DNA of 64,000 bases, from the NCBI RefSeq assembly GCF_001282785.1, contig NZ_CVUA01000001.1, positions 2,728,001 through 2,792,000 on the forward strand, given 5' to 3'. Shown in pieces: positions 2,649-22,107 of the stretch (positions within the stretch are counted from its first letter, which is position 1; each line of letters starts with the position of its first letter). A program made the translations under genes and the position numbers. This DNA comes from Halolamina sediminis. GTDB taxonomy: Archaea > Halobacteriota > Halobacteria > Halobacteriales > Haloferacaceae. The notes beneath the pieces are model-generated. The model did not search any database, was not told the origin of the DNA, and saw only the letters and a list, made by a program, of their open reading frames with translations.

Positions 2649-2719
2649 CTTCGGCGGATCCAGTGGGGGCCGCCCCCATCCGACGTTTTTTGTCGGCCTG
2701 TGGTGAACGCTGACACAGT

Positions 2720-3211
2720 ATGGGAGAGCGAGGCCGGCGGCTCGTCACGGACGGTGAGGGATCGACGAGCGACGACGCCACAGCCGGAGGAACCGAGGGG
2801 ACCGGCGACGAGGACGACCGGACGGCGCTCGTCCGGGAGCTGTACGACGCGATCCCGTTCCACCGGGAGCTCGAGCTGGAGGTGCTCGCGGTGACCCCCC
2901 GGAAGGCGGAGACGAGGATCCCGTTCGACGGCTCGCTGGTGGGCAACCCCGATCTCGAGGTGCTCCACGGCGGCATCATCAGCTCCATCGTCGATCTCAC
3001 CGGCGCCGCGGTGTTCATCGGCCACCGCGGCGACTACACGCCGACGGTCGACCTGCGCGTGAACTATCTGGAAGCCGCCGGGAAACACCCGCTGTACGCG
3101 ACGGCGACCATCGAGCGCCGCGGCGAGAACATCGGCGTCGCAAGCGTGGCGGTCGAGTCCGGCGACGCGGTCTGTGCGACGGGCACCGGGGTGTACAAGC
3201 TGAGCGACTGA
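2720..3211 (+). CDS. PaaI-like hotdog-fold acyl-CoA thioesterase
   Basis: A 163-residue protein. After an acidic, probably disordered leader of about 40 residues comes one hotdog domain with the hallmark LHGGIISSIVDLTGAA (the HGG loop followed by the long central helix) and the strands TPTVDLRVNYLEAA and YATATIERRGENIG. PaaI-type enzymes hydrolyse phenylacetyl- or other acyl-CoAs, releasing stalled CoA. It lies between the amidohydrolase and the convergent PaaK-like ligase, so it may remove dead-end CoA esters formed by that pathway. The leader makes the exact start slightly uncertain. Confidence 0.88.
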   Translation: MGERGRRLVTDGEGSTSDDATAGGTEGTGDEDDRTALVRELYDAIPFHRELELEVLAVTPRKAETRIPFDGSLVGNPDLEVLHGGIISSIVDLTGAAVFIGHRGDYTPTVDLRVNYLEAAGKHPLYATATIERRGENIGVASVAVESGDAVCATGTGVYKLSD

Positions 3212-3226
3212 ACGCCGCCGCGACCG

Positions 3227-4372
3227 TCAGTAGCGGTTGTCGACGACCCCGGTCTCGTCGAGTTCCGCGACCAGCGTCACCTCGTCGGGCGTGACGAGCA
3301 GGCGGTCGCCGAGCGCGGCCCGCAGTTCGTCGACGGGGGCCTCGCCCGCACAGACGACCGTCAGTCGGTCGGTCGTCTCCGGCTGGTCGACCTCGATACG
3401 GTACTCGCCGGTGAGCCCCTCGAACCCCGCAAGCACCGTCTCGATGCTCTCGGGGTACACCTTCACGCCCTTGACTTTCAGTCGCTCGTCGGTTCGTCCG
3501 ATGACGCCGTCGGGCAGGACGAGTTCGCCGTCGCGTTCCTCCAGTTCCGCGAGGTCACCCGTGCGGTAGCGGATCAGCGGGATCCCCTCCTTCCGGACGT
3601 GCGTGACGACGACCTCCCCGCGCTCGCCCGTTCCGAGCACCTCCCCCGTGTCGGGGTCGACGATCTCCACGACGGCGTAGTCGGTGACGACGTGGAGCCC
3701 GTCCTCCGCCTCGGTCTCGGCGGCGACGGGCATGATGTGCCGCGTGCCGAAGTAGTCCGTCGCCGTCGTGGCGCCGAGGGCGTCTTTGACCGCCTCGCGC
3801 CGGCCCGGGATGGAGGTGAACGGCTCGCCGGCGCCGACGAACGTGTCCACCTCGCCGCCCGCCTCCCCGACTTTCAACGCGAAGCTCGGGTTCCCGATGA
3901 GCGCGTCCACGTCGAACTGGTGGGTGATGTCGGCGGCCTGCTCGGAGTCGCCGGGGCCGAGCGGGAACACCTCCGCGCCGAGCTCCTCCAGCGCCCGGTG
4001 GACGACGTAGCCCGTGCCGAACAGCTGGTAGCCGAACGTGTTGATCACGCGGTCGCCGGGCTCGATACCGGCCCGTTCGAACACCTCGGCGTTGACAGCG
4101 GCCTGGTGCTCCAGATCTCCCTTGGTGTCGAACACCGGCTGGAGATCCTCGCCCATCGGGGAGAACGTCACCATCGCGGCCCCGTCGTACAGCGAGCCGG
4201 TCGGCGGGTCGGCCTCGAAGTCGTCGACCAGCTCCTCGCCCGTCGTGAACGGGAGCTCCCGGAACGCGTCCCAAGAGTCGACGGCGTCGGGATCGATGTC
4301 GGCGTAGAACTCGTGGTCGGTCGCCCGCGTCAGTTGCTCGCGGACGGCCGCGAGCGTGTCGGAGTCGTACAT
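3227..4372 (-). CDS. Phenylacetate-CoA ligase-like adenylate-forming enzyme, short form
   Basis: A 381-residue protein of the PaaK-like ANL superfamily. The C-terminal half keeps the hinge and A8-type signatures: PLIRYRTGDLAELEE, then GRTDERLKVKGVKVYPESIE. The N-terminal half is shorter than in PaaK (about 430 aa). Where the SSGTTGxPT phosphate loop should lie the sequence reads VTFSPMGEDLQPVF, so the glycine/threonine-rich loop is missing. Typical enzymes convert an aromatic acid, ATP and CoA to aroyl-CoA. This one may have a changed substrate or altered ATP use. It lies 84 bases downstream of livM on the same strand and may be the last gene of that transport operon. Confidence 0.82.
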   Translation of the reverse strand: MYDSDTLAAVREQLTRATDHEFYADIDPDAVDSWDAFRELPFTTGEELVDDFEADPPTGSLYDGAAMVTFSPMGEDLQPVFDTKGDLEHQAAVNAEVFERAGIEPGDRVINTFGYQLFGTGYVVHRALEELGAEVFPLGPGDSEQAADITHQFDVDALIGNPSFALKVGEAGGEVDTFVGAGEPFTSIPGRREAVKDALGATTATDYFGTRHIMPVAAETEAEDGLHVVTDYAVVEIVDPDTGEVLGTGERGEVVVTHVRKEGIPLIRYRTGDLAELEERDGELVLPDGVIGRTDERLKVKGVKVYPESIETVLAGFEGLTGEYRIEVDQPETTDRLTVVCAGEAPVDELRAALGDRLLVTPDEVTLVAELDETGVVDNRY

Positions 4373-5602: not shown

Positions 5603-6556
5603 TCAGAGCCTCTCGATCCGCTCGGTGCCGTACAGGCCGTACGGTTTCACCATGATCACCACGAGGAGGAAGATCATCGGGAGGATCTCCCCGAAGCCGG
5701 CGCCGAAGTTCGCCTGCACGTCCAGCAGGGGGACGACGACGGCGGTCCCGCCCTCGAGGTAGTACGAACCCAGCTCCTGCAGGAGTCCGACCACGATGGA
5801 CCCGATGAAGGCGCCGGGGATGCTGTCCAGCCCGCCGAAGACGACGGCCGCGAAGATGATGATGCCCGTCGTCTCGATTGAAAAGGCGGCGCCCCCGCTG
5901 GACATCGCCAGCAGGATGCCGCCGATCGCGGTGACGGCGATGGAGAGCGTCCACGCCAGCGCGATCGTCCGCTCGATCGAGACGCCGAGCACCATCGCCG
6001 CCTGCTCGTCGCTCGCCGACGCCCGGAGGATGGAGCCGGTGACGGTGCTCCGGAAGAACAGCATCAGCACGCCGACCACGATCAGGGCGATGACGACCGC
6101 GACCGCGTAGGCGCCCTGGATCGACGCACCGAGGGGGAGCCCGACGGACCAGTCGAACGCCAGCTCCGCGGGGTAGGCCTTGAAGTTCCGGCCGAACAGG
6201 AACGCGATGAACCCCTCGAAGATCCCGCCCAGCGCCAGCGTGACGATGATGACCGAGAGCACCGGCTCGCCGATGAACTGCCGGAACACGACCCGTTCGA
6301 GCGCGAGGCCGAGCCCCACGCCCACGAGTATCGTGAGCACGACGGCGGCCCACGCCGGCAGCGCCGTCGGGAGGATCGCGGCCGTCCCGAAGATGACGAC
6401 GCTGTAGGCGCCGACCATCGCGATCTGGCCCTGTGCGAAGTTGAGCACGCCAGTCACCTTGTAGATGAGCGAAAAGCCCATCGCGACCAGCGCGTACAGC
6501 GCGCCGAGGCCGATGCCGGAGACGGCGATGTCGAAGAAGGTGGTGAGATCCACCAT
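5603..6556 (-). CDS. livH: ABC transporter permease, LivH family
   Basis: A 317-residue membrane protein starting MVDLTTFFDIAVSG. It shows the LivH hallmarks GLGALYALVAMGFSLIYKVTGVLNFAQGQ in the first helices, the loop ILRASASDEQAAMVLGVSIERT and GGLDSIPGAFIGSIVVG. It pairs with LivM to form the transmembrane channel. Its ATG overlaps the TAA of the acyl-CoA synthetase gene by one base (TAATG), so the two should be translationally coupled. Such coupling of a ligase to a permease is the most telling sign that the imported compound is activated to a CoA thioester. Confidence 0.93.
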   Translation of the reverse strand: MVDLTTFFDIAVSGIGLGALYALVAMGFSLIYKVTGVLNFAQGQIAMVGAYSVVIFGTAAILPTALPAWAAVVLTILVGVGLGLALERVVFRQFIGEPVLSVIIVTLALGGIFEGFIAFLFGRNFKAYPAELAFDWSVGLPLGASIQGAYAVAVVIALIVVGVLMLFFRSTVTGSILRASASDEQAAMVLGVSIERTIALAWTLSIAVTAIGGILLAMSSGGAAFSIETTGIIIFAAVVFGGLDSIPGAFIGSIVVGLLQELGSYYLEGGTAVVVPLLDVQANFGAGFGEILPMIFLLVVIMVKPYGLYGTERIERL

Positions 6557-13897: not shown

Positions 13898-16800
13898 ATG
13901 GGAGAGTGTCGATTCACCTTCGATCGAGCGTCGGCGGAACAGGCGCCGGAGTCGCTCGACGGCTGGTCCTGTCCACACGAGACTCATCCGGACGCGGAGC
14001 GGTGTGTGTTCCACCTCACGCCGGGCGAGCGGGGCGAACTCGGCGTCGACGACGAGGCAGTGGTCGATGCGTTTCTGGATCGGGCGCTCGGATCGGGCGA
14101 GGCAGCCAAGCAGTTCGTCGGCGCCCAGTTCGGGGAGATGGACCTGCGGCGGCGGATCGTCGCCGCCGACGACCGGCACCCGATCGACCTCCGGTACGCG
14201 TCAATCGAGGGGACGTTCGATCTCCGGAACGCCGTCGTCAGCCAGCCGATCCGGCTGAACGGCGCCGAGATCGGGACGCTCGCGTGTCGCGACGCGACCG
14301 TCGAGGGCGAGTTCGAGTTCGTCGACGGCCGCTGTACCGGCCCCGTCGAGGGGGTGGAAGTGGTGTTCGAGGGTGACGTGGACTGGCGGGACGCCACCTT
14401 CGAAGGGCCGGTCACCCTCGACGAGGCACGGTTCGAGGGCGACGGCGCGATCGGCGGGGCGCGGTTCCGCGACGACGCGCAGTTCCGCGGGGCGGAGTTC
14501 CACGGGGAGACGAACCACCTCGACGACGACATCTCCTTCGAGGCGGCGGAGTTCGACGGGGCGGCGTCGTTCGCGAACGCCGAGTTCGAGCACGCCGACT
14601 TCGGCGGCGTCACGTTCCGGGCGTCCGCGTCGTTCGCCGAGACCGTGTTCGACGGCAGGGGCGAGTTCGTCGGCGCCCACTTCGAGGCGGCCGTCGAGTT
14701 CGACGACGCCTATCTCGACGGCGGGACGTTCCACGACGCCACCTTCGAGGGGTCCGTGACGTTCGACGCGACCGAGTTCGACCGCGACGGCGTGTTCACC
14801 GACGCGACCGTCGAGGGCGAGGCCTCCTTCGAGGAGGTCCGCTTCCGCGAGGACGCGAACTTCGCGGGGGCGGCGTTCGAGTCGACCGTGACGTTTCTCG
14901 GCACCGAAGTCGAGGGCGGGGACAACGTCGTCGACGACGACGCCAGCTTCGAGGGAGTGACGTTCCGGGAGGCGACGTTCGACGCCGTCCAGTTCCGCTA
15001 TGCGACGTTCGAGGACGCCACCTTCGCGGGGACGGCGAGCTTCGGGGAGACGACGTTCGACGACGACGGCGTGTTCACCGGGGCGACGTTCCGCGAGCCT
15101 GCGACGTTCCTGGAGTGTCGGTTCCGTGACGACGCCGCCTTCGACGACGCCAGCTTCGAGGCGACGGCGACGTTCGACGGCGCCGAGTTCCAGGGCGGCG
15201 CCAACACGAAAGACGAGGACGGCACCTTCGAGAACGCGACGTTCGACGGCGAGGCGTCGTTCCACCGGGCTCGCTTCCGCGCCGCGGCGTTCGCGGGCGT
15301 GACGTTCGGGGACGAGGCCGACTTCGAGTCGGTCGTGTTCGACCGAGCAGCCACGTTCGCGGACTGTACCTTCGAGGGCGAATCGACGTTCGACGACTGT
15401 CGATTCCGCGGTGACGCGACGTTCGCGGACGCGACGTTCGGCGACGAGGCCGACTTCGAGTCGGTCGTGTTCGACCGAACGGCCACGTTCGACGAGTGCA
15501 CGTTCGAGGACGAGCCCCGCTTCGACGAGAGTCGCTTCCGGGGCGACGCGGACTTCGTCGACGCCGTCTTCGAGGCCGAGGCGTGGTTCCAGGGAGTCGA
15601 GTTCCAGGGTCGATCACGGATCCTCGAGGGGGACGTGAGCTTCCGGAACGCGATCTTCCGCGGGGTCATCCACTTCGAGCGGGCCGAGTTCGGCTTCGCC
15701 GTGTTCGACGACGCGGAGTTCCACGATAACTGTTCGTTCGCCGATACGTCGTTCACCGACAACGCGACGTTCGAGACGGTGCAGTTCCGGGGGAACGCCA
15801 CGTTCGAGCGGGCGGTGTTCGTGGCGAGTGCGGAGTTCGAGGGGGCGACCTTCGCGGGCGTCGCGGAGTTCAGCGAGGCGGAGTTCCGGGACAACGCGAG
15901 CTTCGAAAACGCGACGTTCGCCGGCACGACGACGTTCAAAGGGGTGAGCTTCCACGGGAGCGAGACGGTCGTGGAGGACGACTCGTCGTTCGGCGGGGCG
16001 ACGTTCGAAAACGGCGTGACGTTCGCCCGCGCGCGGTTCCGGTTCGCGAACTTCACCGACGCGACGTTCGGGGGCAGAGTCGAGTTCACGGAGGCGATCC
16101 ACGAAGCCGGCGCCAACTTCGACGGCGCCGAAGTGGCGGGCCGCTTCGACGCGACGGAGGCACAGTACGACGGCACCGTGACAGTCGACGGCGCGACGTT
16201 CCACGCGCCGTGTGATTTCACCGACGCGGCGTTCGGCGGCGACACGGCACTCAACGGCTCCATGGTCGCGTTCGAGAACACGACGTTCGACGACGTGGTG
16301 TCGTTCGCGGACGCGAAGTTCGGGCCGGTCGAGTTCGACGACACCGCCTTCGGCGCCGGCGTCACCTTCGCCGGATCGAGGTTCGAAGAGACGTTCGATC
16401 TGACCATCGAACCGGTCGACGCCGAGACGGTCGTCGACATGTCCGGCGTCTCGTTCGCGGACGGGCGGATCGCCCAGCCCGCCGACGGAGCGGTGTTCTA
16501 CGACATGGAACAGGCCGTGCTCCGGGACGTCAAGCTCGAAAGGAACGATGCGGGGACCGACGAGCACGAACTGTTCGATTACTTCCGGTTCTGTCACACC
16601 GAGTTCGAAGACTTCGACTTCTCGAAACACAACGAGGAGCTGGCACGGACCGACTGGACGATCCACGAGTTCAGGTTCGACGGCTCGGGGGGCGAGCCCC
16701 GAGGAGTCACTGACGGCGGGGAGTCGATACGGACGCCGAACCGTAGTATCGGCCCAGTCGAGTCGCCCTCGAAGCTCGAATCGACGTACTTGAAGGCGAA

Positions 16801-17305
16801 AAACAGCGCCGGCGCGTTCGGCCACCGGAAGGCCGCCGCCGAGTTCTTCATCAAGGAGCTCACCTACCGCCGCAAGAAGAACGTCCGGGCGTTCACCCAC
16901 GGCGGGGGGACGGTCCGCGACCGCCTGACTGCCGGCGGGAAGGCGCTCGGCAACTGGGTGCTCTACCAGACGTGTGGCTACGGGGAGCGCCTCTGGCGGG
17001 TCGTCTACGTCTCCAGCGTGCTCGTGTTCCTGTGGGGGGTGTTCTACACCCTGTTTACCCGGGGGACGACCGGCGCGGTCGAAGCCAACGCCCTCGAAGG
17101 GCCGCTGGCGCTGTTCACCCCCGGCGGCGTCATCACCCTCGGAAAGAACGTCTACTTCAGTATCGTGACGTTCACGACGCTCGGCTACGGCGACGTCCAG
17201 CCCGTGGGCACCGTCGCCCGAACGCTCGCCGGCATCGAGTCGTTCGTCGGCGCGTTGCTCGTCGCGCTCGTCGTGTTCGTCCTCGGTCGGCGTGTGGCCC
17301 GCTGA
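13898..17305 (+). CDS. Giant pentapeptide-like beta-solenoid protein fused to a K+-channel-type pore
   Basis: A 1135-residue protein starting MGECRFTFDRASAEQ. Order of parts: (1) residues 4-39, a Cys/His cluster (C4, C25-P-H27, H30, C36, H39) that may bind metal. (2) Residues about 75-870, a pentapeptide-repeat-like solenoid in which Phe recurs at alternating 5 and 6 residues (ATFAGTASFGETTF). Acidic loops begin at residues 200, 337, 430, 568 and 684, and a degenerate one lies further on. (3) A conserved connector (LFDYFRFCHTEFEDFDF, WTIHEF, YLKAK, AAAEFFIKELTYRRKK). (4) A two-helix pore: TM1 about residues 1032-1053, filter TTLGYGD at 1093-1099, TM2 about 1111-1131. The filter is the canonical potassium-channel signature. 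Pentapeptide plus ion-channel combinations are known, but their function is not. The start was set by alignment with the paralogue at 18073. Confidence 0.9.
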   Translation: MGECRFTFDRASAEQAPESLDGWSCPHETHPDAERCVFHLTPGERGELGVDDEAVVDAFLDRALGSGEAAKQFVGAQFGEMDLRRRIVAADDRHPIDLRYASIEGTFDLRNAVVSQPIRLNGAEIGTLACRDATVEGEFEFVDGRCTGPVEGVEVVFEGDVDWRDATFEGPVTLDEARFEGDGAIGGARFRDDAQFRGAEFHGETNHLDDDISFEAAEFDGAASFANAEFEHADFGGVTFRASASFAETVFDGRGEFVGAHFEAAVEFDDAYLDGGTFHDATFEGSVTFDATEFDRDGVFTDATVEGEASFEEVRFREDANFAGAAFESTVTFLGTEVEGGDNVVDDDASFEGVTFREATFDAVQFRYATFEDATFAGTASFGETTFDDDGVFTGATFREPATFLECRFRDDAAFDDASFEATATFDGAEFQGGANTKDEDGTFENATFDGEASFHRARFRAAAFAGVTFGDEADFESVVFDRAATFADCTFEGESTFDDCRFRGDATFADATFGDEADFESVVFDRTATFDECTFEDEPRFDESRFRGDADFVDAVFEAEAWFQGVEFQGRSRILEGDVSFRNAIFRGVIHFERAEFGFAVFDDAEFHDNCSFADTSFTDNATFETVQFRGNATFERAVFVASAEFEGATFAGVAEFSEAEFRDNASFENATFAGTTTFKGVSFHGSETVVEDDSSFGGATFENGVTFARARFRFANFTDATFGGRVEFTEAIHEAGANFDGAEVAGRFDATEAQYDGTVTVDGATFHAPCDFTDAAFGGDTALNGSMVAFENTTFDDVVSFADAKFGPVEFDDTAFGAGVTFAGSRFEETFDLTIEPVDAETVVDMSGVSFADGRIAQPADGAVFYDMEQAVLRDVKLERNDAGTDEHELFDYFRFCHTEFEDFDFSKHNEELARTDWTIHEFRFDGSGGEPRGVTDGGESIRTPNRSIGPVESPSKLESTYLKAKNSAGAFGHRKAAAEFFIKELTYRRKKNVRAFTHGGGTVRDRLTAGGKALGNWVLYQTCGYGERLWRVVYVSSVLVFLWGVFYTLFTRGTTGAVEANALEGPLALFTPGGVITLGKNVYFSIVTFTTLGYGDVQPVGTVARTLAGIESFVGALLVALVVFVLGRRVAR
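14495..15985 (+). repeat. Super-repeat inside solenoid-channel gene 1 (five loop-bearing units)
   Basis: Units open at 14495, 14906, 15185, 15599 and 15947. Spacings are 411, 279, 414 and 348 bp, that is 137, 93, 138 and 116 residues. Each opens with an E-F/V-x-G turn, a polar loop and an acidic triplet (LDDD, VDDD, DEDG, LEGD, VEDD) before the Phe ladder resumes. A sixth, degenerate unit without the acidic triplet follows around 16250 (ALNGSMVAFENTTF). The spacings fit 22n+6 residues within one residue, as in the paralogue. Confidence 0.8.
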
Positions 17306-18072: not shown

Positions 18073-21000
18073 ATGCGCGGGGACTGCTCGTACACGTTCG
18101 ACCCGGATTCGGCATCACGGTCCGCCGACCGTGACAGTTCACTCACCGAACCGTGGTCCTGTCCCCACGACGCACACGACGAGAGCGAGTACTGCGTGGT
18201 CCACATGCCGCCCGAGGAGCGCGAGGAGCGCGGCGTCGACGACCGCGATGTGGCAGCAGCCGTCGAACGCACGGCGGAGTCGGCAGGGCGCGAGCGGAAA
18301 CAGCTGATCGGCGGGAACTTCGCGGATCTGGATCTCTCGTATCTGGTGGTGGAGACGGGCGACCAGTTCCCGCTCGACCTCCGGCACGCGACCGTCTCCG
18401 GGACGCTGTCGTTGGCGACGGCGGAGTTCCGTCAGCCGCTTGACCTCCGGCACGCCTCGATCGGGGACGTGGCGTTCGAGGAGGCCGTGTTCCGGGAGTC
18501 CGTCGACGTCTCCGACGCGACGGTCGAGGGGGAGTTCGACGCCGCACACGCGACGTTCGCGGGGGACGTGGACCTGATCGGCACCCACTTCGAGGGCGCC
18601 GTCTCGCTGGAGGAGGGACGGTTCCACGGCGACACCTGCCTCCGGTTCACCGAGTACGACGAGCCCGCCGTCTTCGACGGGGTCGAGTTCCGCGGCGACG
18701 CCAACCTGCTCGACGACGACGCCTGTCTCGAGGAGGCCGTGTTCCACGACCGCGCCTCTTTCCGGAAGGCGGAGTTCCGGTACGCCGACTTCGTCGGCGC
18801 CACTTTCGAGGGGGTCGCCGACTTCGACGAGGCGACGTTCACCGGCGACGGCGAGTTCCGGGAGACGCGGTTCGAGGCCGACGCCTCGTTCCGCGGGGTC
18901 GAGTTCCGCGGGGACACGAACGTCGAGATCGACGACGCGGACTTCAGCGGCGCGGCGTTCGGCGGCGACGCCGACTTCACCAACGGGCAGTTCGCCCTCG
19001 GGAACTTCGCGGGGGCGACGTTCGCCGGCGAGACGCTGTTCACCGAGGCCGCGTTCGACGAGGACGCCGACTTCCGCGGGGTCGCGTTCGAGAGCGACCT
19101 CGACTTCACGGAGGCGCGGTTCCGCGAGGACGCCGATCTCTCGGGCGTCACCGTCGGCGGCGAGGCCACGTTCCGCGGGGTCGAGTTCCGCGGCGGCGAC
19201 AACGTCGACGACGACGACGTGAGTTTCGAGGGCGCCGCCTTCGCGGGCCCCGTCGACTTCCACGCCGCCGAGTTCCGGTACGCCGACTTCCGGTCGGTCG
19301 AGTTCGAATCGACGGCGGCGTTCGTGGCGGCGACGTTCGCTGGCGACGCGCGGTTTGCGGACGCGACGTTCGCCGACGCGATCGAGTTCGAGGAGGCCCG
19401 CTTCCAGGACGACGTCGACTTCGCCGCCGTCGACGTCGGCGGCGACGCCTCGTTCCGGGGCGCGGAGTTCCACGGTGGGGCGCGGATCCGGACCGACGAC
19501 CTGCGCTTTACCGACGCGACGTTCGCGGGCGACGTGACGTTCGAGCGGGCGGCGTTCCGATCCGCCAACTTCGAGGACGTCGCAGTCGCCGGCGACGCCG
19601 ACTTCGACGAGGCGGTGTTCGACGGGGAGTTGACGCTGACGGGCGCGTCGTTCGACGGGGCGCTCGTGTTCGCCGAGGCGCGGTGTAACGCCGACGTGGC
19701 GCTGGACGAGGTGACCGTCGGCGGCTCCGCGAACTTCGAGGGCGTCGAGTTCCGCGGCGGCGACAACGCCCGCGACGACGACGTAACGTTCGCGAACACC
19801 ACGTTCGCGGCCGATGCCACGTTCGAGAACGCCGCCTTCGAGTACGCGGAGTTCTCCGGCGCCGCCTTCGGCGACGACGCCGTCTTTCAGAACGTCCGGT
19901 TCGGACAGGACACGTACTTCGAGGGCGTCGAGTTCCGGGGCGACGTGGACCTGAACGAGACGCGCTACGGGGAGGACGCCTCCTTCGAGGGGGCGACGTT
20001 CGCGGGCGAGGTCTGCTTCCGCGGCGCGGAGTTCCACGGCGGCGACAACGTCGAAGAAGACGACGTGCGCTTCGTCGACGCCACGTTCGAGAGCCACGTC
20101 GACTTCGAGGGTGCACAGTTCCGCTACGTCGACTTCACGAGGGCGACGTTCCACGCGGCGGCCGACTTCGAGGACACCGTCTACGAGGCGGGTGCCGTGT
20201 TCGAGTCGGTCAGGTTCGACGCCGGCGTCTGGTTCACGGAGGCACGATTCCGCAACGACGCCTCCTTCGAGGGGGTGACCGTGCAGGGCGACTGGGACGG
20301 CGACGAGGTCTGGTACACGGAGTCGCCGCCGGAGGAGGAGATCGGCGGCCAGCGCGATCCCGAGGCGTGTTTCCGCGGGGTGGAGTTCCACGGCGGCGAC
20401 AACGTCGACGAGGACGACGCCCGGTTCGTCGACGCCGCGTTCGCGGTGCCGGCGACGTTCCACCGCGGCCAGTTCCGGTCGGCGAACTTCGAGGGCGTCG
20501 AGTTCGGAGCGCCGGCGGACTGTTCGTTCGCCGAGTTCGGCCGCCACGCCAACTTCCGCGACGCCCGCTTCGACGCCAGCGCCGACTTCGACGAGGTCCG
20601 CTACGAGAGCGACGTCTGTTTCGCGGCGGCGACGTTCGAGGGGCCCGCACGGTTCCGCGGCAGCGAGTTCACCGGCGGCGCCTACACCGTCGAGGACGCC
20701 GACTTCGAGGGCGTGGGGTTCCGGGACGACGTGACGTTCAGCTACACCGAGTTCAGACAGGCGAGCTTCGCCGACGCCGCGTTCGAGGCGACCACCGAGT
20801 TCACGGAGACAGCGTTCTCGGACACGGTGACGTTCGAGGGGGCGACGTTCGACGGCGAGGCCTCGTTCGCCGAGGCGACGTTCGAGGACACGCTCGACGC
20901 CTCCGAGACGGTGTTCGGCGACGACGCTCGCTTCGTGAAGGCCGTGTTCGAGGACGAGACGACGTTCGAGGGCGCGCGGTTCGAGGGGCCAGCGGCGTTC

Positions 21001-22107
21001 GCCGCCACCGAATTTCAGGCGACGGCGAACATGCACGAGGACGACGCCAACTTCCGGGCGGCGGCGTTCGAGGCCGAGGCGAACTTCGCCCAGAGTCGCT
21101 TCGAGTACGCGACGTTCGCCCAGACGACGTTCGACGCCGGCGCGACGTTCAGACGCGTCGTGTTCAAGCAGTCGGCGACGTTCCGGCCCCGCACCAGCGA
21201 CGGCGAGCCGACGCTGCTCTCGTTCAACCGCGCGGTGGTCGGCGGCGGAGTGCTCGGGCAGACCGAGGACAGCGTCGCGTTCTACGACTTCACCGGCGGC
21301 GAGATCCACGACGTTCGACTCGACGACAGCCACTGCGAGCATCCGCTGTTCGACCACTTCCGGTTCTGCAACACCGACTTCGTGGGGTTCGACTTCAGCG
21401 CCCACAAGGCCCACCTCGCACGGAACAACTGGGTGATCCACGAGTTCGCCGCCGACCCGTCGCTGCTACCCACGGGCGAGGCAGCGACGATCACCGACCC
21501 GGCGACGCTGGAGAACACGTACATGAAGGCCAAGAAGTGCGCGAAGGCCGACGGCGACACCAAAGCCGCCGCGGAGTTCTTCCTCCGGGAGATGACGTAC
21601 CGGCGGAAGAAACACTGGCACGTCGCCTTCGGGAGCGACGACGACGAGACGGCGAGTTCCGCCCGTCGGGACGTCGACGTCGCGACCATCGCGAGCGACC
21701 TGAACGACCGGACCCGGGTCACGACCCGGCTCAAGGCGTTCGGCAAGTGGGCGGGCAACACCACCCTCTACCAGACGTGTGGCTACGGGGAGCGCCTCTG
21801 GCGGATCGTCTACATCTCCACGATCGCCGTCGTGTTCTGGGGGATCCTCTACACCCTCACCGCGACCACCACGTCGGAGACGGGGACGCTCCAGGGGATC
21901 GAGGACGCCGGCCACCTAGCGTCGGTCGACGGACTACTCGTGATCGCGGAGAACCTCTACTTCTCGACGGCGACGTTCATCACGCTCGAGTACGTCGGCT
22001 CGCCCTCGAGCGAGCTCACGCGCTGGCTCGCGAGCATGGAGGCGTACTTCGGCGCGCTGCTGATCGCGCTCGTCGTGTTCGTCCTCGGCCGGCGCGTGGC
22101 CCGGTAA
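18073..22107 (+). CDS. Giant pentapeptide-like beta-solenoid protein fused to a channel-like pore with altered filter
   Basis: A 1344-residue paralogue of the product of 13898-17305. It has the same N-terminal Cys/His pattern (C5, C30-P-H32, H35, C41, H44). The solenoid spans about residues 90-1080 with nine acidic-loop units beginning at residues 205, 277, 371, 465, 559, 653, 771, 865 and 980. Five of the eight spacings are exactly 94 residues. The connector (FDHFRFCNTDFVGFDF, WVIHEF, YMKAKK, AAAEFFLREMTYRRKK, YQTCGYGERLWR) and both pore helices (TM1 about 1242-1262, TM2 about 1320-1340) are conserved. The filter position, however, reads TLEYVG at 1304-1309 in place of TLGYGD, so potassium selectivity is not expected. 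Start chosen at 18073 (MRGDCSYTFD) by alignment to the paralogue. Confidence 0.88.
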   Translation: MRGDCSYTFDPDSASRSADRDSSLTEPWSCPHDAHDESEYCVVHMPPEEREERGVDDRDVAAAVERTAESAGRERKQLIGGNFADLDLSYLVVETGDQFPLDLRHATVSGTLSLATAEFRQPLDLRHASIGDVAFEEAVFRESVDVSDATVEGEFDAAHATFAGDVDLIGTHFEGAVSLEEGRFHGDTCLRFTEYDEPAVFDGVEFRGDANLLDDDACLEEAVFHDRASFRKAEFRYADFVGATFEGVADFDEATFTGDGEFRETRFEADASFRGVEFRGDTNVEIDDADFSGAAFGGDADFTNGQFALGNFAGATFAGETLFTEAAFDEDADFRGVAFESDLDFTEARFREDADLSGVTVGGEATFRGVEFRGGDNVDDDDVSFEGAAFAGPVDFHAAEFRYADFRSVEFESTAAFVAATFAGDARFADATFADAIEFEEARFQDDVDFAAVDVGGDASFRGAEFHGGARIRTDDLRFTDATFAGDVTFERAAFRSANFEDVAVAGDADFDEAVFDGELTLTGASFDGALVFAEARCNADVALDEVTVGGSANFEGVEFRGGDNARDDDVTFANTTFAADATFENAAFEYAEFSGAAFGDDAVFQNVRFGQDTYFEGVEFRGDVDLNETRYGEDASFEGATFAGEVCFRGAEFHGGDNVEEDDVRFVDATFESHVDFEGAQFRYVDFTRATFHAAADFEDTVYEAGAVFESVRFDAGVWFTEARFRNDASFEGVTVQGDWDGDEVWYTESPPEEEIGGQRDPEACFRGVEFHGGDNVDEDDARFVDAAFAVPATFHRGQFRSANFEGVEFGAPADCSFAEFGRHANFRDARFDASADFDEVRYESDVCFAAATFEGPARFRGSEFTGGAYTVEDADFEGVGFRDDVTFSYTEFRQASFADAAFEATTEFTETAFSDTVTFEGATFDGEASFAEATFEDTLDASETVFGDDARFVKAVFEDETTFEGARFEGPAAFAATEFQATANMHEDDANFRAAAFEAEANFAQSRFEYATFAQTTFDAGATFRRVVFKQSATFRPRTSDGEPTLLSFNRAVVGGGVLGQTEDSVAFYDFTGGEIHDVRLDDSHCEHPLFDHFRFCNTDFVGFDFSAHKAHLARNNWVIHEFAADPSLLPTGEAATITDPATLENTYMKAKKCAKADGDTKAAAEFFLREMTYRRKKHWHVAFGSDDDETASSARRDVDVATIASDLNDRTRVTTRLKAFGKWAGNTTLYQTCGYGERLWRIVYISTIAVVFWGILYTLTATTTSETGTLQGIEDAGHLASVDGLLVIAENLYFSTATFITLEYVGSPSSELTRWLASMEAYFGALLIALVVFVLGRRVAR
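18685..21048 (+). repeat. Super-repeat inside solenoid-channel gene 2 (nine loop-bearing units, mostly 282 bp)
   Basis: Loop-bearing units start (GAGTTC codons, GAATTT in the last) at 18685, 18901, 19183, 19465, 19747, 20029, 20383, 20665 and 21010. Spacings are 216, 282, 282, 282, 282, 354, 282 and 345 bp, that is 72, 94, 94, 94, 94, 118, 94 and 115 residues. Each unit opens with EF[RH]GG-N, an acidic run such as DDDD or EEDD, then a Phe ladder through FRYADF-type steps. The DNA of the loop is also conserved (GGCGGCGACAACGTCGA in several copies), pointing to internal duplication. The 118-residue gap contains a 24-residue non-repeat insertion (WDGDEVWYTESPP and following). Confidence 0.85.

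Follow-up and report, generated by a model that had tools for sequence, protein, structure and literature searches.

Two neighbouring genes of Halolamina sediminis, within the 64,000-nucleotide stretch of DNA analysed here (the window), encode large pentapeptide-repeat proteins that end in sister pores. Gene 1 carries a canonical K+ filter, and gene 2 has, at the matching place, a glycine-free TLEYV filter that is kept in three haloarchaeal genera. Judged by their sequences, the two genes are paralogues of one origin, and in our view gene 2 probably serves as a specialised channel or as a regulatory subunit, rather than being a broken copy. The pair and the gene lying between its members are laid out as follows.

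13898..17305, + strand: gene 1 (ATG at 13898), a 1135-aa pentapeptide-repeat protein with a C-terminal pore of the two-transmembrane (2-TM) K+-channel type
14393..16417, + strand: gene 1 pentapeptide solenoid (PF13576, by Pfam), limits approximate
16574..16969, + strand: gene 1 connector from solenoid to pore
16988..17059, + strand: gene 1 TM1, by hydropathy
17153..17194, + strand: end of the gene 1 pore helix and filter, YFSIVTFTTLGYGD, signature at 17174-17194
17210..17302, + strand: gene 1 TM2, a hydrophobic segment
17309..17899, - strand: four-TM membrane protein of the UPF0114 family (PF03350), lying between the channel genes, 90.8 bits (cut-off 23.1)
18073..22107, + strand: gene 2 (ATG at 18073), a 1344-aa pentapeptide-repeat protein with a GYG-less 2-TM pore
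18421..21222, + strand: pentapeptide solenoid of gene 2, limits approximate, containing a higher-order repeat of 94 aa
21349..21771, + strand: gene 2 connector
21793..21870, + strand: gene 2 TM1, a hydrophobic segment
21958..21999, + strand: end of the gene 2 pore helix and altered filter, YFSTATFITLEYVG, with TLEYVG at 21982-21999
22021..22104, + strand: gene 2 TM2, a hydrophobic segment

Both proteins have the same layout, comprising many pentapeptide repeats (PF13576/PF00805, with 19 stretches in gene 1 and 23 in gene 2 by Pfam), a connector and, at the extreme C-terminus, two hydrophobic segments. Their C-terminal domains align end to end, and their last 130 residues are 50% identical. Common to the two are the pore helix, TM2 and the connector (TYLKAKN...EFF..E.TYRRKK...QTCGYGERLWR). 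This alignment bears out the original prediction that the pore helix and connector flanking the filter are conserved in both genes, and that TLEYVG of gene 2 (residues 1304-1309) stands opposite the gene 1 filter. An N-terminal CPH..H......C.FH motif with the look of a metal-binding site also occurs in both proteins (13898-14100 and 18073-18280) and in their homologues. The gene 2 solenoid repeats at 94 and also at 188 residues, with 11- and 22-residue spacing, not the plain 5 and 20, and contains Asp-rich GGDNVxDDDxxF loops that may bind metal. A third, shorter paralogue with the filter TAFGFGG lies in the same genome outside the window (C1:2591181-2591636).

The gene 1 pore is of a familiar type. 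Its TTLGYGD filter fits the T-x-G-Y/F-G signature and occupies residues 1093-1099, exactly, to the residue, where it had been predicted. Ion_trans_2 (PF07885) scores 38.6 bits in gene 1, above the curated cut-off of 22.5 (Pfam), and phmmer matches the protein to KirBac3.1 at E 1e-6. With KirBac3.1, KcsA and other 2-TM K+ channels, gene 1 has in common TM1, the pore helix, TxGYGD and TM2; in both genes, a giant N-terminal pentapeptide solenoid replaces the Kir cytoplasmic domain. Gene 1 would form a K+-selective pore.

Gene 2 departs from the T-x-G-Y/F-G signature. Both of its filter glycines have given way to bulky residues, with an acidic residue (Glu) at the first glycine position, and the aspartate is gone. 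The turn after the filter is one residue shorter than in gene 1 (EYV-GSP versus GYGDVQPVG). In a KcsA-type filter, the two glycines take conformations not easily open to Glu or Val, and the Asp props the filter from behind. With bulky residues in place of the glycines and no aspartate, the gene 2 filter should not form canonical K+ sites, and its K+ selectivity would be lost. Ion_trans_2 reaches 15.6 bits here, under the same curated cut-off of 22.5 (Pfam), and a PDB sequence search with the gene 2 pore gave no match, unlike gene 1.

As a predicted monomer (252 aa, mean pLDDT 76), the C-terminal part of gene 2 takes up a 2-TM pore fold, with two TM helices around a pore helix that ends at the threonine preceding LEYV. 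Residues 148-252 of this model match the pores of SthK, NaK, CNG, HCN, Kir2.2 and KCa2.2 at Z 10-11 (Z 11 for the NaK structures); nearly all rows at this level come from pores of cation channels, although chance alone can bring helical models to such Z values. With Foldseek alone, no match to the model had an E below 0.1. For both genes we infer the pore fold and a tetramer. The cyclic-nucleotide-binding domain of CNG and HCN channels is absent from genes 1 and 2, with no Pfam match and with TM2 ending the protein. Non-selective prokaryotic 2-TM channels, namely NaK and NaKTs, combine a 2-TM pore with a non-GYG filter, as gene 2 does. To our knowledge, few 2-TM channels in nature have a fixed filter free of glycine; those that have been studied are NaK and NaKTs, which both lie nearer the canonical filter. 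The NaK filter is given as TVGDGN, with GxG retained (PMC9822992), and that of NaKTs is the proline-rich LPMGNGPLSP (PMC5052707). Unlike either, gene 2 is without both filter glycines.

Among haloarchaeal homologues, the GYG-less form is kept in three genera. Of 170 family genomes searched, three carry the EYV pore, namely Halolamina sediminis, Haloparvum sedimenti and Halorubrum sp. GN11_10-6_MGM, and TTLGYGD is the form in all other close relatives. The three filters read FITLEYVGSP in the window genome, FITLEYVGAP in Haloparvum and FITLEYVNGAP in Halorubrum, the span just after the filter differing among the copies (EYVG-SP, EYVNGAP). All three pores fall in one clade, supported at 100/98, and at 97/94 once the columns of filter and pore helix are removed. 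Over 13 pore-helix and filter codons (YFSTATFITLEYV), every EYV pair has 0 nonsynonymous and 2 synonymous differences, and over the other C-terminal codons (226-247) the pairs have 86-106 nonsynonymous differences (38-47%), figures drawn from three genomes of which one has a 5'-truncated EYV copy. The EYV set has eleven fixed residues that occur in none of 15 close GYG relatives; six of them lie at 1299-1318, in the pore helix and filter, and one in TM2 (1331). An altered filter at the aligned site in three genera is not due to chance.

Gene 2 homologues retaining TLGYGD were looked for in related genomes and not found, and a strain-specific filter mutation is ruled out by the EYV form in two other genera. 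Intact EYV frames of 1340-1344 aa occur in two genera. The Haloparvum gene (locus L058, 6112-7561) is 5'-truncated, with its first start codon a GTG at 6377 and solenoid-like codons upstream, and for this reason it may be decaying. A wider EYV family was sought in the order, in GTDB contigs, in plasmids and in viruses, and only the three known pores emerged. In GTDB contigs, the scan picked up two EYV loci, those of Haloparvum and Halorubrum; when 392 order genomes were scanned for the codon pattern FxT[hydrophobic]EYV, chance matches were many, and the loci read contained no pore beyond the three. The plasmid search returned three relatives, GYG-type or distant, and the viral contig search one distant relative with the filter TTLGFGD.

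Haloarchaeal pentapeptide-repeat plus pore proteins ('pentapeptide repeat-containing protein') have the domain layout of genes 1 and 2, and their filters vary. Among 131 distinct pores from the order, 97 are GYG or GFG, 10 are GLG or GMG, 5 are SYG, 3 are TLEYV and 16 have other forms, TLTPPG, TSLVLGG and TTVDYGN among them. By parsimony, on a poorly resolved tree, the pores changed between GxG and non-GxG forms about ten times, and loss of GxG is therefore, as far as sequences can tell, recurrent in the family. Pentapeptide repeats were present in 8 of 10 non-GxG proteins scanned. Independent losses, most of them with pentapeptide repeats, are seen at loci L160, L183, L184, L045, L057, L137, L181 and L122. 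Within this pore family, the TLEYV filter is confined to three genomes and the arrangement of gene 1, UPF0114 and gene 2 to two, and the EYV group is the sole case found of an altered filter kept across genera with a fixed pairing. Pentapeptide-repeat 2-TM channels are a known kind, and the glycine-free TLEYV filter is new among them; a search of the literature for pentapeptide channels in archaea found none.

In 3 of 3 EYV genomes, the EYV gene has a GYGD paralogue on its own strand, no more than a few kb away. In Halorubrum (locus L059), the UPF0114 gene (2701-3315, + strand) also sits between the paralogues, sharing the strand of the channels; its orientation relative to them is thus opposite in the Halolamina sediminis and Halorubrum cassettes. 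UPF0114 was found in 2 of 293 genomes of the order and 2 of 167 of the family, both being those with full-length EYV copies, and a profile search found it absent from Haloparvum sedimenti, whose EYV gene is truncated. Because UPF0114 lies between both full-length pairs and nowhere else in the 293 genomes, the unit appears from gene order to be a three-gene cassette, an association complete in the sample and based on two genomes. No other gene flanking the pair recurs beside homologues. UPF0114 is common elsewhere in the phylum, probably in methanogenic members (the matching control genomes include Methanosarcina), and its 1.5-kb flanks there are without a GYGD/N motif. Searched against the PDB, the UPF0114 model, a four-helix protein, gave weak and mixed matches.

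The Halorubrum pair has also exchanged sequence. Its GYG and EYV paralogues have a 118-nt identical tract in their connectors, and the next longest identical tract in any other paralogue or orthologue pair is 42. We read the tract as a recent gene conversion, because its identity extends far beyond that of other pairs although the codons flanking it have diverged. The connector tree is poorly resolved, the region being short and subject to gene conversion, and was left out of the inference of kinship. The tract ends before the pore, and the two filters remain different in kind; since the pores of the converted paralogues still differ, either conversion tracts never reach the filter or selection purges those that do.

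We tentatively favour reading gene 2 as a working pore of different selectivity beside gene 1, either permeable to Na+ or divalent cations or a weakly selective cation pore, and give this reading somewhat less than an even chance. It is suggested by the new filter, which is exactly conserved and acidic at the first glycine position. Genes 1 and 2 would be ancient paralogues carrying cytosolic pentapeptide solenoids on a tetrameric-type 2-TM pore, within a small cassette with UPF0114, and gene 2 would keep the pore fold with the fixed alternative filter T-A-T-F-I-T-L-E-Y-V. Counting against a working pore are the truncated Haloparvum copy, the small number of sequences (only three) and the variable span after the filter. 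NaChBac and NavAb, bacterial voltage-gated Na+ channels with the filter TLESW, have the same T-L-E tripeptide after the pore helix, and the Glu in TLE sets the Na+ selectivity of NaChBac-like channels (PMC4225499). Gene 2 differs from them in having only two hydrophobic segments and no S1-S4 voltage sensor, in the YV that follows TLE, in a TM2 about 8 residues past the filter core in the model, and in the absence of the second pore helix from the model. The likeness is at most convergent. The fuller proposal, that a K+ filter was converted to an acidic TLE filter convergent with those of bacterial Na+/Ca2+ channels, in a three-gene ion-control unit with a K+-selective sister and UPF0114, seems to us rather unlikely.

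A more doubtful reading than the working pore is that gene 2 encodes a non-conducting or dominant-negative regulatory subunit, which joins gene 1 tetramers and tunes or blocks K+ flux, much as pore-dead or electrically silent K+-channel subunits do. Both filter glycines are missing, and K+ channels mutated at GYG usually fail to conduct, the GYG-to-AAA and G-to-R mutants of Kv channels being dominant-negative as well (PMC11335225), which favours a silent subunit over a working gene 2 pore. The GYG paralogue is always nearby in the three genomes, and the gene conversion in Halorubrum keeps the connectors alike, which could serve a common assembly interface. However, gene conversion can be neutral, and the solenoid-bearing proteins are unequal in length (1135 versus 1344 aa). 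Further, a dead filter needs no residue-for-residue retention, yet this one is so retained.

Alternatively, the cassette could be a stress or anti-phage effector, in which the solenoids sense a signal and open the pores, and gene 2 forms a death or leak pore with no need of K+ selectivity. Its patchy occurrence (EYV in 3 of 170 family genomes, UPF0114 in 2 of 293 order genomes) and differing genomic contexts would suit such a role. So would a fold alignment over connector and pore (21349-22104) between the whole gene 2 C-terminal model and HalA (9nyi), the Hailong anti-phage ion channel, which spans 199 residues at Z 10.5, rmsd 4.9 and Foldseek E 0.25, values that are not decisive for helices. 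We treat this modelled likeness as a lead only. Against an effector role, no sequence match to HalA appears among the matches listed, PADLOC gives no match, and the adjoining genes are metabolic or ABC, with no HalB-like nucleotidyltransferase partner or other defence gene recognised in the list of open reading frames around the pair. We consider the effector reading quite improbable. Still less credible, and largely refuted, is that gene 2 is a decaying duplicate whose filter was lost by chance under relaxed selection: the truncated Haloparvum copy and the recurrent GxG losses of the wider family speak for it, but the altered filter is the same in three genera, its 13 codons being free of nonsynonymous change, and the frames are intact in two.

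The original prediction had proposed a division of labour between a K+-selective member and a non-selective, blocked or purely structural one, possibly mixed in one tetramer. The part of it that stands is the conserved alternative filter, the conserved pore helix and the constant vicinity of a GYG paralogue in three genomes, and a conserved GYG-less form so paired fits a division of labour; the ion passed by gene 2 and the mixing of the two proteins in one tetramer are conjecture. We found no function for UPF0114, a family of wide occurrence, and its tie to the channels offers a possible functional context. If true, the conversion to an acidic TLE filter would show, in a minimal and natural form, how a 2-TM scaffold can switch its filter. 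GYG and non-GYG pores of one origin lie side by side in these genomes, swapping flanking sequence while their filters are kept distinct. As adjacent sister pores with distinct filters, they make the rebuilding or silencing of a K+ filter directly testable.
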